NCBI GenBank assembly: GCA_014055525.1
Contig: WIAH01000018.1
Span: 1-64,000, forward strand
Source: Nitrospira sp. CR1.3
Lineage (GTDB): Bacteria > Nitrospirota > Nitrospiria > Nitrospirales > Nitrospiraceae
Direction of reading: 5' to 3'
Length of the DNA: 64,000 nucleotides
The notes beneath the pieces are model-generated. The model was not told the DNA's origin. It did not search any database and was given only the letters and a program-made list of their open reading frames with translations. This document shows, piece by piece, positions 16,326-33,156 of the stretch. Position numbers and translations under genes: made by a program. Each line of letters opens with the position of its first letter. The first letter of the stretch is position 1.

Positions 16326-16365
16326 CACGAGCTTATGGCTGATGGCTGATAGCCTATAGCACGAG
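16326..16365. repeat. GAGC/heptamer repeat arm (solo)
   Basis: Copy of the heptamer-built repeat family: a GAGC start, then TTATGGC TGATGGC TGATAGC CTATAGC and an ACGAG end. It has four heptamers where the other copies have three. It lies 8 nt upstream of the HTH/MBL start codon and has no opposite arm nearby. Confidence 0.7.
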
Positions 16366-26462: not shown

Positions 26463-27746
26463 ATGAAAACTTCCCGCTCGGCCAAGCTATTTGCAGAATC
26501 CCAACAACTCATTCCCGGTGGCGTGAACAGTCCGGTCCGCGCCTTCCGTTCAGTCGGCGGACAACCTCGTTTCATCAGTCGCGCGAAGGGATCGCGGCTC
26601 TATGACGTGGACGCAAACGCCTACATCGATTACGTCTTGTCCTGGGGACCGATGATTCTGGGGCATGCGGCTCCTTCCGTCATCAACGCGATCAAGAAGG
26701 CGGCTGGACGGGGGACCAGTTACGGGGCGCCGACCGAATTGGAAGTTACTCTCGCGAAGATGATTCGAGAGGCCTTCCCCTCCATGGAGAAGGTCAGGCT
26801 GGTCAGTTCAGGCACGGAAGCGGTGATGAGCGCGATTCGAGTCGCGCGCGGATTCACGAAGCGTGACGGTGTTTTGAAATTCGAGGGCTGTTACCACGGT
26901 CATAGCGACTACTTGCTGGCCAAAGCGGGATCGGGACTCGCCACGTTGGGAATACCCGATTCGCCCGGCGTGCCGGAGGACTTTGCGAAACACACGTTGA
27001 CCGTCCCTTACAACGACATCGGCGCGGTCCGGCAGTTCGTCAGCGACCATCGAGACCGCCTCGCCTGCATCATTCTCGAACCAGTCGCCGGCAACATGGG
27101 TGTGGTCCCGCCGGCGCCCGATTTCCTGGCCGCCCTGCGGCGACTGACCGCCGAGAACGACATTCTCCTCATTTTTGACGAAGTCATCTCCGGTTTCCGC
27201 GTGGCGTACGGCGGCGCTCAGGCCCTCTACGGCATGAAGCCGGATCTGACCGTGTTGGGGAAAATCATCGGCGGAGGATTACCGGTCGGCGCGTACGGAG
27301 GTCGGAGCGACATCATGGACCTAATCGCGCCCTCGGGACCGGTCTACCAAGCCGGCACCCTGTCGGGAAATCCGCTCGCTGTGACGGCGGGAATTGAAAC
27401 GCTTACGCAACTCAGGAAGAAGGGTGTCTACAAGCTTCTCGAAGACCGGTCTGCGGCACTGGCAAAAGGCATCGGTGAGGCGGCGAAGAAGGCTGCTGTT
27501 CCACTCACGCAGACGAGGGTGGGTTCCATGCTGACTTCGTTCTTTACTTCGGGGCCGGTGGTCGATTGGAATACGGTGAAACAGTCGGACACGAAACGGT
27601 ATGGTCGTTTTTTCCACAGCATGCTGGAACAGGGCATCTATCTCGCTCCGTCGCAATTTGAAGCGGCCTTTCTCTCGACCGCCCACTCAGCAGCGGACAT
27701 CGAAAAGACCGTTCGCGCCGCGCAAGCCGCTATGAAGAGCTTATAG
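26463..27746 (+). CDS. hemL: glutamate-1-semialdehyde 2,1-aminomutase
   Basis: 427 residues; PLP enzyme of the C5 pathway that makes 5-aminolevulinate for heme and siroheme. Visible: the SGTEAVMSAIRVARG phosphate-binding loop, FEGCYHGHSDY, DEVISGFRVAYGG with the PLP-binding Asp, and the Schiff-base Lys K267 in TVLGKIIGGGLPVGA. The frame is open 135 bp upstream, but the ATG at 26463 fits the family N-terminus. TTGACC (26422) with a weak -10 near 26445 suggests a short or absent leader. The last codons (AGC TTA TAG) lie inside a repeat element, which supplies the stop. Confidence 0.96.
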   Translation: MKTSRSAKLFAESQQLIPGGVNSPVRAFRSVGGQPRFISRAKGSRLYDVDANAYIDYVLSWGPMILGHAAPSVINAIKKAAGRGTSYGAPTELEVTLAKMIREAFPSMEKVRLVSSGTEAVMSAIRVARGFTKRDGVLKFEGCYHGHSDYLLAKAGSGLATLGIPDSPGVPEDFAKHTLTVPYNDIGAVRQFVSDHRDRLACIILEPVAGNMGVVPPAPDFLAALRRLTAENDILLIFDEVISGFRVAYGGAQALYGMKPDLTVLGKIIGGGLPVGAYGGRSDIMDLIAPSGPVYQAGTLSGNPLAVTAGIETLTQLRKKGVYKLLEDRSAALAKGIGEAAKKAAVPLTQTRVGSMLTSFFTSGPVVDWNTVKQSDTKRYGRFFHSMLEQGIYLAPSQFEAAFLSTAHSAADIEKTVRAAQAAMKSL

Positions 27747-27822
27747 CCTATGGCGTATGGCCCGAGCTACAAAGGCAAAGACTCCTCTTTGCCCGTGCTA
27801 TAAGCCATTAGCCATATGCTCC
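27737..27822. repeat. 86-bp palindromic heptamer element
   Basis: MITE-like element. Left arm is GAGC, then TTATAGC CTATGGC GTATGGC, then CCGAGC; the right arm (reverse complement) is GAGC, then ATATGGC TAATGGC TTATAGC, then ACGGGC; the arms match at 23 of 31 positions. A perfect 8-bp inner stem (GGCAAAGA/TCTTTGCC, loop CTCC, 27774-27793) lies between them. It overlaps the hemL stop codon and lies before the convergent small gene, so it may also act as a transcription block. Confidence 0.8.
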
Positions 27823-27877: not shown

Positions 27878-28108
27878 TTACTCCTCATCATCGTCGTCTG
27901 CTTCGAGCGCCTCCTGCCTCTTCTGCTCCTCCATAGCGTTGTGCAGTAACATGCGGATAAACATCGAATAGAGGGAACCCTTCTCGAGAGTCCCTCCTGG
28001 TGGAACAGCAATCCTGCCTTCTTTAATCATCTTATCCATCCAGACCTTCTGATCCGGAGCGATGAGAATGGGGATCTCGACGAGTCCGACACGGCCAAAC
28101 ATTTCCAT
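27878..28108 (-). CDS. small conserved-looking protein with acidic tail
   Basis: 76 residues, start at 28108 with GGAGG 5 nt upstream. It reads as a compact helical domain (IPILIAPDQKVWMDKMIKEGRIAVPPGGTLEKGSLY) followed by a charged helix and an Asp/Glu-only C-terminus. I recognise no family. It is bracketed by two repeat elements (27737-27822 and 28127-28222); the upstream one starts 19 bp from its ATG and so probably sits in its promoter or leader. Confidence 0.6.
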   Translation of the reverse strand: MEMFGRVGLVEIPILIAPDQKVWMDKMIKEGRIAVPPGGTLEKGSLYSMFIRMLLHNAMEEQKRQEALEADDDDEE

Positions 28109-28126
28109 TGAAGCCTCCGTGGTCAA

Positions 28127-28222
28127 GAGCCTATCGCTAATGGCGTATGGCAGGAACCGGAGAATGGCATAACCGAGGCCCAGGATTCGAAGTTCGTGCC
28201 ATAAGCTACACGCTGTATGCTC
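28127..28222. repeat. 96-bp palindromic heptamer element
   Basis: Same family as 27737-27822. The left arm is GAGC, then CTATCGC TAATGGC GTATGGC, then AGGAAC. The right arm (reverse complement) is GAGC, then ATACAGC GTGTAGC TTATGGC, then ACGAAC. The interior differs from the 86-bp copy. It separates the small acidic-tailed gene from the plus-strand exported-protein gene. Confidence 0.75.
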
Positions 28223-30919: not shown

Positions 30920-31027
30920 CTATTTCTTTTTCTTATCCGACGGATTGTCTGAAAACAGCAGCCAGCCGAGCACGATGAATCCGATCGCGACGCCTGCGAT
31001 CGCCAGCCAGGTTCCGATTTTGTCCAT
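30920..31027 (-). CDS. 35-residue membrane protein coupled to ybgC
   Basis: A short ORF begins MDKIGTWLAIAGVAIGFIV, continues as one TM helix and ends in a polar tail with Lys repeats (DNPSDKKKK). Its ATG overlaps the ybgC stop as TGATG, a standard re-initiation arrangement. It is too small for most gene callers. Function unknown. Confidence 0.65.
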   Translation of the reverse strand: MDKIGTWLAIAGVAIGFIVLGWLLFSDNPSDKKKK

Positions 31028-31428
31028 CAGCCCATCCCTCTCGCTTCAGACTGTAGCGCGGCGATGATCGCCTTGTCGAGGCGTCTCACCTTGCCGTTTC
31101 CATCTGTTGCCGCCAGGCGCGCGGAGCCCTCCACAATTACGCGCCCACTGCTTTTTTCCTTCACGACGTGGACGAACCTCAGCGAAGCGGTGTTCAGGTC
31201 TGAAATGGAGGTGTCGAGCACCAACTCATCACCGTAACGAGCGGGAGATCGATAATCCACCTCGGCATGTACCACCACAAATACCGTCCCTTCTTCCAGT
31301 AACTTCCTGACCGACAATCCGCGCTCTTCAAGATAGTGCGTCCGCGCCCGCTCGAAGTATTTCAGATAGTTGGCGTAATACACCACTCCGCCGCAGTCGG
31401 TGTCTTCATAGTAAATGCGAATGTCCAT
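31027..31428 (-). CDS. ybgC: YbgC-type acyl-CoA thioesterase
   Basis: 133-residue hotdog-fold thioesterase of the 4-hydroxybenzoyl-CoA thioesterase/YbgC class. The signature is RIYYEDTDCGGVVYYANYLKYFERAR, with the catalytic Asp in YEDTDCGG, followed by strands ending RVIVEGSARLAATD. Normal family length. A mobile repeat element begins 2 bp upstream of its ATG, so its leader and ribosome-binding region come from the element; no Shine-Dalgarno is visible. No tol genes are nearby. Confidence 0.9.
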   Translation of the reverse strand: MDIRIYYEDTDCGGVVYYANYLKYFERARTHYLEERGLSVRKLLEEGTVFVVVHAEVDYRSPARYGDELVLDTSISDLNTASLRFVHVVKEKSSGRVIVEGSARLAATDGNGKVRRLDKAIIAALQSEARGMG

Positions 31429-31430
31429 GG

Positions 31431-31899
31431 GAGCTTATAGCGTATGGCTAATGGCCCGAAACAAAGATCCGAGCAAAAACAATAGTCAAATTTCAAGAAA
31501 TTAGCAGCGTGTTCCTGAATGCATTGATACTTTTTGCGAGTCGCTGACCGGCTTCGTACAAGTCGGTGTGCTCAACTTCCGTAATGTACGCTCGGTCCTT
31601 GGCAAGAAACGCCCCAGCAACCACTTCAAAGGCCGATCCCAATGCAATCTCTAGGTGATAGTCGAACGCCTTGTTACTGTTTTTGGCTGTGCCTTCAGCG
31701 ATATTGAGCGCGATAGAATTGACCGCCCGATTCAACTGGGACTTCAGCCCATAGTCTTCATGTCTTGGAAACTTTGCAGTGATGGCATAGACCCTCGTCG
31801 CATGGTCCTTGGCCAACTGCCAGATTTCGAGCGTCTCAAACCGAAATGCCATTCTCTACCTTCTCCTTGCTCGTGCTACACGCCATAAGCAATATGCTC
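31431..31899. mobile_element. 469-bp element with inverted ends carrying a four-helix-bundle gene
   Basis: Left end 31431-31459 is GAGC, then TTATAGC GTATGGC TAATGGC, then CCGA. The right end 31871-31899, reversed, is GAGC, then ATATTGC TTATGGC GTGTAGC, then ACGA. The arms match at 21 of 29 positions and are the same family as the gene-free palindromes at 27737 and 28127. Between them is exactly one gene (31493-31852). The right end abuts the stop codon of the CARF gene and the left end stops 2 bp from the ybgC ATG. No clear target-site duplication is seen. Confidence 0.65.
31493..31852 (-). CDS. four-helix-bundle (S23/23S IVS-type) protein
   Basis: 119 residues of the S23/four-helix-bundle family first known from intervening sequences of 23S rRNA genes, related to the Avd accessory protein of diversity-generating retroelements. 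It has FETLEIWQLAKDHATRVYAITAKFP, DYGLKSQLNRAVNSIALNIAEGTAKNS and FDYHLEIALGSAFEV, all diagnostic. AAGGAGAAGG precedes the ATG. It sits alone between inverted repeat arms, away from rRNA or reverse transcriptase genes. A role in nucleic-acid binding is plausible; mechanism unknown. Confidence 0.9.
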   Translation of the reverse strand: MAFRFETLEIWQLAKDHATRVYAITAKFPRHEDYGLKSQLNRAVNSIALNIAEGTAKNSNKAFDYHLEIALGSAFEVVAGAFLAKDRAYITEVEHTDLYEAGQRLAKSINAFRNTLLIS

Positions 31900-33156
31900 T
31901 TAAAGGGCTAGCGCCGGAAATTTCGGCAACGATGCCTCACTGATCCCCGAAAGCCTGAGCACAATCTCGTAGAGCTGCTGGACGCGCTCGGCTTTCACCG
32001 GTTCAAAGCCGTGTCCGAGCACGGCATGACTCGCGGCATCGAGCAAGGGCTTCATGGCCGGCCACTCCTTGAGGAACGATTGTCCCGATGGATCGCCCAA
32101 TCCGGCGAGTGCGCGGAATTGTGCCTGCAGCGACAGCTTGTATTTGCCGTCGACATCGTCCAGGTAACAGGTCCGGCAGGTTTGGCGGAGCGCTTCCGGC
32201 AATTGCTCCGGCTGAAGATCCCAGGTCTTGATCCTGTATTGTTTGAAAAGCCGATGCTGCGCGAAGGCTTCAAGAGCCCGCATGAGCGACTGCATCGCCG
32301 CCTCCGGGTCATGCGCCATACGAAGTCGGCGGCCCGCGTGAGCCAGCAAATCCGGCGCGAGACCTTCTTTGACTTCAGCCGGGTCGAGCACGAGTTTCTC
32401 GAGAAATCCCGAATTCGCCTTGATCGCAGGCAGGATGGCCTTGACGCCCGGCGGCCCGCCGAACAACGAGGCCATCTCCATGGCCTTGACCGACGCTTTC
32501 AGTTTCTCCCAGGCCTGGCGATAGTGAAACCGTTCCCACAGATCATAGCCGTCGGCCAGATCGGCAAAGGCGCGATACAGCGGCTTCTGTCCGCCGCTGA
32601 CCCGCGTTTCGATCTGGCGAAACAGTGTTCCGGCAGCGACATAGGCTCCCCCGCTAAAGAGGGCGCACCCTTCCCCTCGCATTCCCGCAGCTGCCTCATC
32701 CCATGGATTGATATGGACCCAGAGTTTCTCCAGTCCGTCGATCGTGATCGCGTCGCCTTCCCGACCTGCTCCGCCGTCGACGATCGAGACGATTCTCGAA
32801 GCATGAGGCATGGCGGCGAGCGTCAAGGCTCCTGCCATCGCCGGAGTCGCTCCGGTCATATCGACAACGAGAGTCCCGGGCTCGATCCCCCACGTGTTGA
32901 GGAGTCGTGGCAGCGTCCGGGCGATCGTGACGTAACAGGAAGGAAAGTTCCCTTCGTCGGGCAGGACGATCCAATCCCACCGTCTCGGCATCTGGACGAG
33001 CTTGGGCTGAACGTCTCGTTCGACCAGGGATTTTGTCCGTTCGGGGAGCACGAAACAGAGCGATTCCGGCCGCAACCGGTTAATGGCATGGACGGCGCTC
33101 CCGATCTCTTCCGTAAGGGCAACGACCAGGGCATGAACCGGCTGTTCTTGTGCCAT
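31900..33156 (-). CDS. orphan CARF-domain protein, Cas02710/TIGR02710-like
   Basis: 418 residues. The N-terminal part has a CARF (CRISPR-associated Rossmann fold) pattern: ALVVALTEEIGSAVHAINRLRP, VLPDEG, and the ligand-loop-like LVVDMTGATPAMAGALTLAAM (D99-M-T-G-A-T). The C-terminal part is helical, with PEAAMQSLMRALEAFAQHRLFKQYRI, the block typical of Cas02710 proteins. An R-x5-H (RRLRMAH) is present, but I cannot say whether it is a HEPN active site. No cas gene or CRISPR array is in the window. A TTGATC/TATAGT promoter predicts a leaderless mRNA. Its stop abuts the repeat element. Confidence 0.75.
   Translation of the reverse strand: MAQEQPVHALVVALTEEIGSAVHAINRLRPESLCFVLPERTKSLVERDVQPKLVQMPRRWDWIVLPDEGNFPSCYVTIARTLPRLLNTWGIEPGTLVVDMTGATPAMAGALTLAAMPHASRIVSIVDGGAGREGDAITIDGLEKLWVHINPWDEAAAGMRGEGCALFSGGAYVAAGTLFRQIETRVSGGQKPLYRAFADLADGYDLWERFHYRQAWEKLKASVKAMEMASLFGGPPGVKAILPAIKANSGFLEKLVLDPAEVKEGLAPDLLAHAGRRLRMAHDPEAAMQSLMRALEAFAQHRLFKQYRIKTWDLQPEQLPEALRQTCRTCYLDDVDGKYKLSLQAQFRALAGLGDPSGQSFLKEWPAMKPLLDAASHAVLGHGFEPVKAERVQQLYEIVLRLSGISEASLPKFPALAL

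Follow-up and report, generated by a model that had tools for sequence, protein, structure and literature searches.

We propose that the 469-nt unit at positions 31431-31899 of the window (the whole 64,000-nt stretch of Nitrospira sp. CR1.3 DNA that was analysed), in which a PF05635 gene is enclosed by inverted GAGC(NNATRGC)3 arms, acts as the "driver" locus in a mobile repeat system of two components. A four-helix-bundle (FHB) protein with the S23/IVP/Avd fold, encoded between inverted arrays of the heptamer of its clade (here NNATRGC), would recognise the heptamers of its own clade and, with enzymes from the host or from another element, would promote the copying of gene-free palindromes. 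The copied palindromes, each consisting of two inverted arms and roughly 70-160 nt long, would settle at new intergenic sites, often in the gap between a stop codon and the start codon that follows it. The unit with the gene would stay put and be inherited or lost, like RAYT genes relative to REPINs. The FHB protein is proposed to recognise the arrays and to drive copying because its gene is bounded by arms, because the protein cluster predicts the repeat word within the family, and because presence of the gene predicts copy number. We infer binding of the arms by the protein, an active role for it in copying (as opposed to regulation or tolerance of the repeats), and the participation of an enzyme that cuts or copies. 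We give this reading a probability of roughly 0.55.

The unit, its protein and its gene-free relatives

The left arm (31431-31455, plus strand) reads GAGC TTATAGC GTATGGC TAATGGC, is followed inward by CCGA, and lies 2 nt upstream of the ATG (31428) of a YbgC/FadM-like thioesterase gene (31027-31428, minus strand, assigned by profile matches). The inverted right arm (31875-31899, minus strand), GAGC ATATTGC TTATGGC GTGTAGC, directly adjoins the stop codon of a CARF-HEPN/Csm6-like gene (31900-33156, minus strand; TIGR02710, PF09670), which PADLOC types as CARF1--CARF_HEPN; the spacing to this ORF, whose end including the stop is at 31900, is 0 nt. Both flanking genes are host neighbours and lie outside the element. 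The sole gene within the unit encodes the FHB protein of 119 aa (31493-31852, minus strand; PF05635 23S_rRNA_IVP, TIGR02436). An earlier note, made from the sequence alone, had described inverted heptamer arms around one S23/Avd-like FHB gene, fitted precisely between a stop and a start codon, and this description is confirmed. The two arms do not repeat each other exactly, as both N positions in every heptamer vary freely.

The same arms are found with the arm pattern at two gene-free palindromes (27737-27821 and 28127-28222), in agreement with the earlier note, which had assigned them to one arm family. A lone arm of four heptamers (16329-16360, plus strand) has no partner arm nearby at up to 3 mismatches. 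With at most 1 mismatch, the full arm pattern has 13 matches in the 3.46-Mb genome (35 contigs) and the backward-read pattern has 0, so the arms are beyond chance. The genome contains six PF05635 genes over the cut-off, plus one weak match, and NNATRGC arms are present at the window gene only.

The two palindromes touch neighbouring reading frames. At 27735-27746, the last residues of the upstream gene and its stop codon (AAG AGC TTA TAG) come from the first palindrome; the gene is called hemL-like from a reading of its translation and not from a family search, and a gene ending supplied in this way recurs in G001 (L053) and G005 (L054). The second palindrome lies just upstream of a minus-strand ORF of 80 aa (27881-28120), which has no Pfam or NCBIfam match and has a similar counterpart at the corresponding place in G005 (L054).

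The transposon-like ends suggested at first sight hold up in part. Terminal inverted repeats, a feature of MITEs and TIR transposons, are present, but they are clade-specific heptamer arrays, and a search for a target-site duplication at the exact ends of eight units in G000 found direct repeats of 2-9 nt at none of the 8 (assigning AA to the arm yields a single 3-nt direct match).

The assignment of the window FHB protein to its family is firm, with 106.2 bits against PF05635 (cut-off 33.8, E 1.3e-30) and 100 bits against TIGR02436 (cut-off 24). Its AlphaFold model, based on an alignment of 43 sequences, has a pLDDT of 96.4 and four helices. The predicted structure resembles that of a Xanthomonas protein (PDB 2gsc, TM 0.86-0.96 across five chains) and also matches a Bacteroides protein (PDB 2rld). 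Foldseek reports a looser match to Avd (4dwl, E 0.058, TM 0.80 by query length), and the model also resembles chains of DGR ribonucleoproteins (8ub7, 8ube). Pfam and NCBIfam profile searches matched no catalytic domain in the protein. According to PDB titles and PMC4990558, structures of S23/IVP proteins have been solved, but their function is not known. Nothing in phage records matches the window protein at 1e-4; 20 plasmid records have a match, every one with less than 60% identity.

Inverted arrays and repeat words at PF05635 loci

The earlier note had suggested that FHB genes might be enriched between inverted pairs. This applies to the gene class, and not to the NNATRGC motif alone. As a measure, we used the best ungapped inverted repeat between the 150 nt upstream and the 150 nt downstream of a gene, with a threshold of 13. 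We took 95 PF05635 loci from among the first matches listed for the window's genome and its relatives, of which 89 are usable (5 could not be placed and 1 was dropped for an internal stop; the weak match L007 was not used). The threshold is reached at 74 of these 89 loci and missed at 15, compared with 0/53 pairs of far flanks and 11/265 swapped pairs. A second, cross-phylum set of 80 loci, chosen from a GTDB-based collection as those most similar to a single query and therefore not random, yields 51 loci at or above threshold and 28 below among 79 usable ones, with 0/70 far pairs and 2/234 swapped pairs. Control ORFs from the same loci reach 13 in only 1 of 89 cases (0/30 and 1/59). The test undercounts, because the differing free positions of the window locus hold its score to just 10.5. 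Of the six FHB loci in the window's genome, three reach the threshold (L001, L003, L004), and L002 and L006 have no visible arms.

The repeat unit of the arrays, read by eye from the arms of the family set, is 6-8 nt long, and 7 nt in most cases. A period scan (at least 21 of 28 matches at lag 7) detects 13/89 upstream flanks, 7/89 downstream flanks and 1/89 far stretches, and is on its own weaker than the inverted-arm test. All 8 cyanobacterial plasmid loci examined, out of 25 matching records, score 15-30 in a set that had no control of its own, and a Nostoc plasmid FHB gene has GGGAACA arrays on either side. On plasmids of Trichormus and Scytonema (L390, L395), both typed as conjugative, the FHB gene has CAGAATT-type arms, and the two plasmids share one layout of hypothetical genes around it.

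Inside the family, the heptamer word is specific to the protein clade. For 79 family loci among the matches listed (score at least 11; 21 protein clusters, 5000 shuffles), the Jaccard index of arm 5-mers is 0.282 inside protein clusters and 0.023 between them (p 2e-4), and it is still 0.237 for 159 pairs with protein similarity below 0.75. There is no such overall link across phyla. Mantel tests show no overall correlation of word and protein either between the family and other phyla (rho -0.025, p 0.78) or among the other phyla themselves (rho 0.034, p 0.17). Among close pairs (similarity at least 0.6), 42% of 26 share a word, compared with 2-3% in the similarity bins between 0.2 and 0.5; these 26 include the pair L264 and L107, which are the same contig with identical protein and arms. 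The TCAGC word of the MRDF cluster is kept in its nearest relatives from Methylobacillus (L234), Deltaproteobacteria (L235) and Dehalococcoidia (L242), yet L237, L241 and L244, which are 0.53-0.58 similar to family proteins, share zero 5-mers with them.

A sessile gene, dispersed palindromes and the rival explanations

A match to the Csm6-like gene turned up in 70 of the 76 family genomes. A ybgC-like gene is nearby at 62 of the 70 loci examined, and the junction could be read at these 62. Nine of the 62 junctions are nearly empty (0-22 nt), among them that of G005 (21 nt), which belongs to the window's genus. The window-type FHB gene (best match at 68% identity or more) occupies 19 of the junctions, in some cases truncated, and the left arm begins 0-6 nt past the csm6 stop codon. 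A second FHB clade, with full-length matches and CGTGAAGCGTATCTCGT-like arms, is present at 9 junctions, and 4 more hold remnants. As sorted by eye, the junction of G007 carries a gene-free palindrome of the window's word, and those of G046, G060, G050, G043, G038, G015 and G002 carry palindromes of other words. In the congeners G003, G004 and G006, the junctions are not clean empty sites and contain 123, 1130 and 123 nt of other sequence, respectively.

Gene-free palindromes vary in a similar way. G001, G003 and G004 show 5-16 unaligned nucleotides at the C26 palindrome site, where G005, G002 and G006 have 80-87 nt of other sequence. The palindrome at the C20 site is absent from G005 (3 nt unaligned, with part of the flank missing). 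The guaB/guaA junction, named by reading the gene ends, contains an NNATRGC palindrome in G000 and G001, one of the CGTGAAGCGT type in G005, one of the NNTCAGC type in G002, and 86-112 nt of degenerate or other sequence in G003, G004 and G006. Both the gene-free palindromes and, as seen from G005, the gene-bearing unit are thus polymorphic insertions in the genus. The earlier note had held that its proposal would fall if the arms had no association with FHB genes and if relatives had no empty-site allele between ybgC and the CARF gene; the association and the empty alleles were both found.

The window-type gene is nevertheless sessile. It is present in 19 of 76 genomes and sits next to the csm6-like gene in every one of them, and what is dispersed are the gene-free palindromes. 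The earlier picture of a mobile element with one gene-carrying and two MITE-like copies is therefore borne out as regards the bounded unit and its gene-free copies, but the gene unit shows no sign of hopping. The arm pattern is found in 65 of the 76 genomes, with a maximum of 141 matches and 0 for the backward control in every genome, although these counts overstate the number of elements, since overlaps in the 7-nt register are possible and the arms at the FHB locus are counted in. In the 15 genomes with an intact window-lineage gene, the median number of arm matches is 49, versus 6 in the 61 genomes without it (within-genus permutation p 1e-4, where label shuffling removes kinship only in part). 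The independent NNTCAGC lineage repeats this pattern more weakly, with a median of 85.5 in 8 genomes with the gene versus 11 in the other 68 (within-genus p 0.035). Twenty arm stretches of G009, picked from listed places and not at random, comprise 16 with facing plus and minus arms (spans of about 70-160 nt) and 4 lone arms. On one 25-kb contig of this genome (G009:C28; L371, L372, L373), an identical arm, GAGCCTATGGCATATGGCTTATAGC, occurs four times, always on the minus strand, and is possibly part of a larger repeat.

The association of gene and copy number is not strict. Arm-rich genomes without the window lineage include G025 (141 matches), G022 (92), G030 (74), G033 (70) and G035 (65), and conversely, G071 has the window-lineage gene and merely 3 arm matches. 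Such genomes speak against the driver reading, as do the missing overall correlation across phyla, the lack of a catalytic domain match and the FHB loci below the arm threshold. They also fit a different explanation, in which the FHB protein acts as a regulator that binds the repeats, or is a passenger, the palindromes spread by slippage, recombination or the action of another transposase, and the gene persists by the arrays through binding, for example for self-regulation. The sessile nature of the gene, the many arm matches in genomes without the cognate gene and the lack of a catalytic domain match all speak for this account. Neighbouring ORFs add to it: the FHB gene shares its strand with the called upstream ORF at 69 of 79 family loci and 43 of 48 other loci where a neighbour was called, and with the downstream ORF at 53 of 72 and 38 of 47, respectively, in counts that had no control set. 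Given this same-strand bias, host transcripts may include the FHB gene. Regulation or passenger status alone, however, leaves unexplained why palindrome number tracks the cognate gene within genera, and why inverted arms stand on two sides of the gene. We consider this explanation rather unlikely.

The palindromes could also act at the RNA level, in the manner of the 23S rRNA intervening sequence (IVS). The arms would pair in RNA, processing would be by RNase III, and the element would return to DNA via a reverse transcriptase acting in trans, with the FHB protein playing the role of Avd in DGRs. According to PMC4990558, the Coxiella IVS is of similar size (428 nt), encodes a protein of the same family, has 2-3 tandem heptamers upstream of the ATG of its S23 gene, and is excised by RNase III. 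The resemblance of the FHB model to Avd and to DGR ribonucleoprotein chains is in line with this route, and so is the strand shared with the upstream ORF, with the same caveat that a control set was lacking. In the window lineage, both arms could be parsed in 28 of 30 elements. The five fixed heptamer positions agree between the paired arms of an element, but the free positions agree in 42% of cases versus 38% for shuffled partners (p 0.085), and the R position of the heptamers in 46% versus 51%. A hairpin maintained by covariation is thus unsupported in this lineage. A protein that reads linear sites is favoured over a maintained stem, because the free positions of the arms hardly agree beyond shuffled partners. 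In addition, Rfam yields no RNA family match anywhere in the window. An RNA-level element appears distinctly unlikely.

Finally, a RAYT or IS200-type Y1 transposase might move the palindromes in trans as ordinary REPINs, with the FHB gene merely incidental. The layout of the palindromes is REPIN-like, and Y1_Tnp, the transposase family covered by the search across the family, is matched in 45 of the 76 genomes. However, that search at E 0.001 matches nothing in nine arm-rich genomes (G009, G014, G021, G024, G036, G048, G067, G042 and G033), and none of the 22 Y1 loci that could be inspected, out of 30, is bounded by these heptamer arms. Several of them have other inverted ends, and two have heptamer arms elsewhere in the stretch that do not bound the transposase gene. 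On these grounds, we reject a Y1 transposase as the mover, and regard this origin of the palindromes as very improbable indeed. The Y1 transposase genes at L326, L327 and L329 have long inverted ends of their own, which are GGTGTCAGGAACCATT-like and unrelated to the heptamer arms.

Comparison with known systems

The driver system proposed here is related in organization to several known ones. As in the REPIN-RAYT system (PMC3116915), a single-copy gene stands beside its own repeats, gene-free inverted doublets are dispersed, and a genome may contain several independent pairs. RAYTs have been proposed to drive the copying of REPINs in trans (PMC3116915). In contrast to the RAYT gene, which encodes a Y1 tyrosine transposase (PMC3116915), the gene in the window encodes an FHB protein without a transposase match, and the repeats are arrays of 6-8-mers, with free positions that are unpaired in the window lineage.

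The Coxiella 23S rRNA IVS (PMC4990558) is likewise a small element with one S23/IVP FHB ORF and tandem heptamers just upstream of it. Unlike the IVS described there, the window unit lies between two protein genes and not inside a 23S rRNA gene, and it has two-sided inverted arrays and many gene-free relatives. The DGR protein Avd (PDB 4dwl) shares the four-helix-bundle fold predicted for the window protein, which nevertheless scores 16.5 bits with the NCBIfam Avd equivalog model, far under the cut-off of 80, and is encoded between csm6-like and ybgC-like genes.

Heptameric repeats whose role is open have been reported in Xanthomonas (GGGAATC) and Nostoc (GGGGA(C/T)T) (PMC4692102) and in Beggiatoaceae (TAACTGA; PMC4679880). 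The role of the Xanthomonas and Nostoc heptamers "remains to be elucidated", and heptamers are over-represented among the short tandem repeats of many bacterial genomes, according to PMC4692102. Like the arrays described here, the heptamers of these three groups are tandem and mostly intergenic, and inverted pairs occur in two Xanthomonas genomes, with 70 and 75 cases (PMC4692102, PMC4679880). The main texts of PMC4692102 and PMC4679880 do not mention "four helix", "S23" or "intervening". In the open-licence literature searched, we found no link between the FHB gene class and flanking heptamer arrays.

It is conceivable, and somewhat short of probable, that S23/IVP/Avd-like FHB proteins are sequence-specific drivers of mobile heptamer repeats throughout prokaryotes, each clade with its own word, which would flank the clade's gene as inverted arrays and make up the gene-free palindromes that the protein spreads. 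The 23S rRNA IVS and the heptamers of Nostoc, Xanthomonas and Beggiatoaceae would then be special cases. The tie between a class of small FHB genes and heptamer repeats puts both the function of S23/IVP proteins and the role of the heptamers within reach of testing. If the FHB protein drives copying, it would be a driver of mobile repeats without a known transposase domain.

In the tests made here, the element lacks at least one defining feature of each of the RAYT, IVS, MITE and DGR sets. On a more cautious view, it could be regarded as a form of IVS that stands alone. The many related FHB genes, each in arrays of its own seven-letter word, point to a kind of mobile repeat system that has so far gone undescribed.
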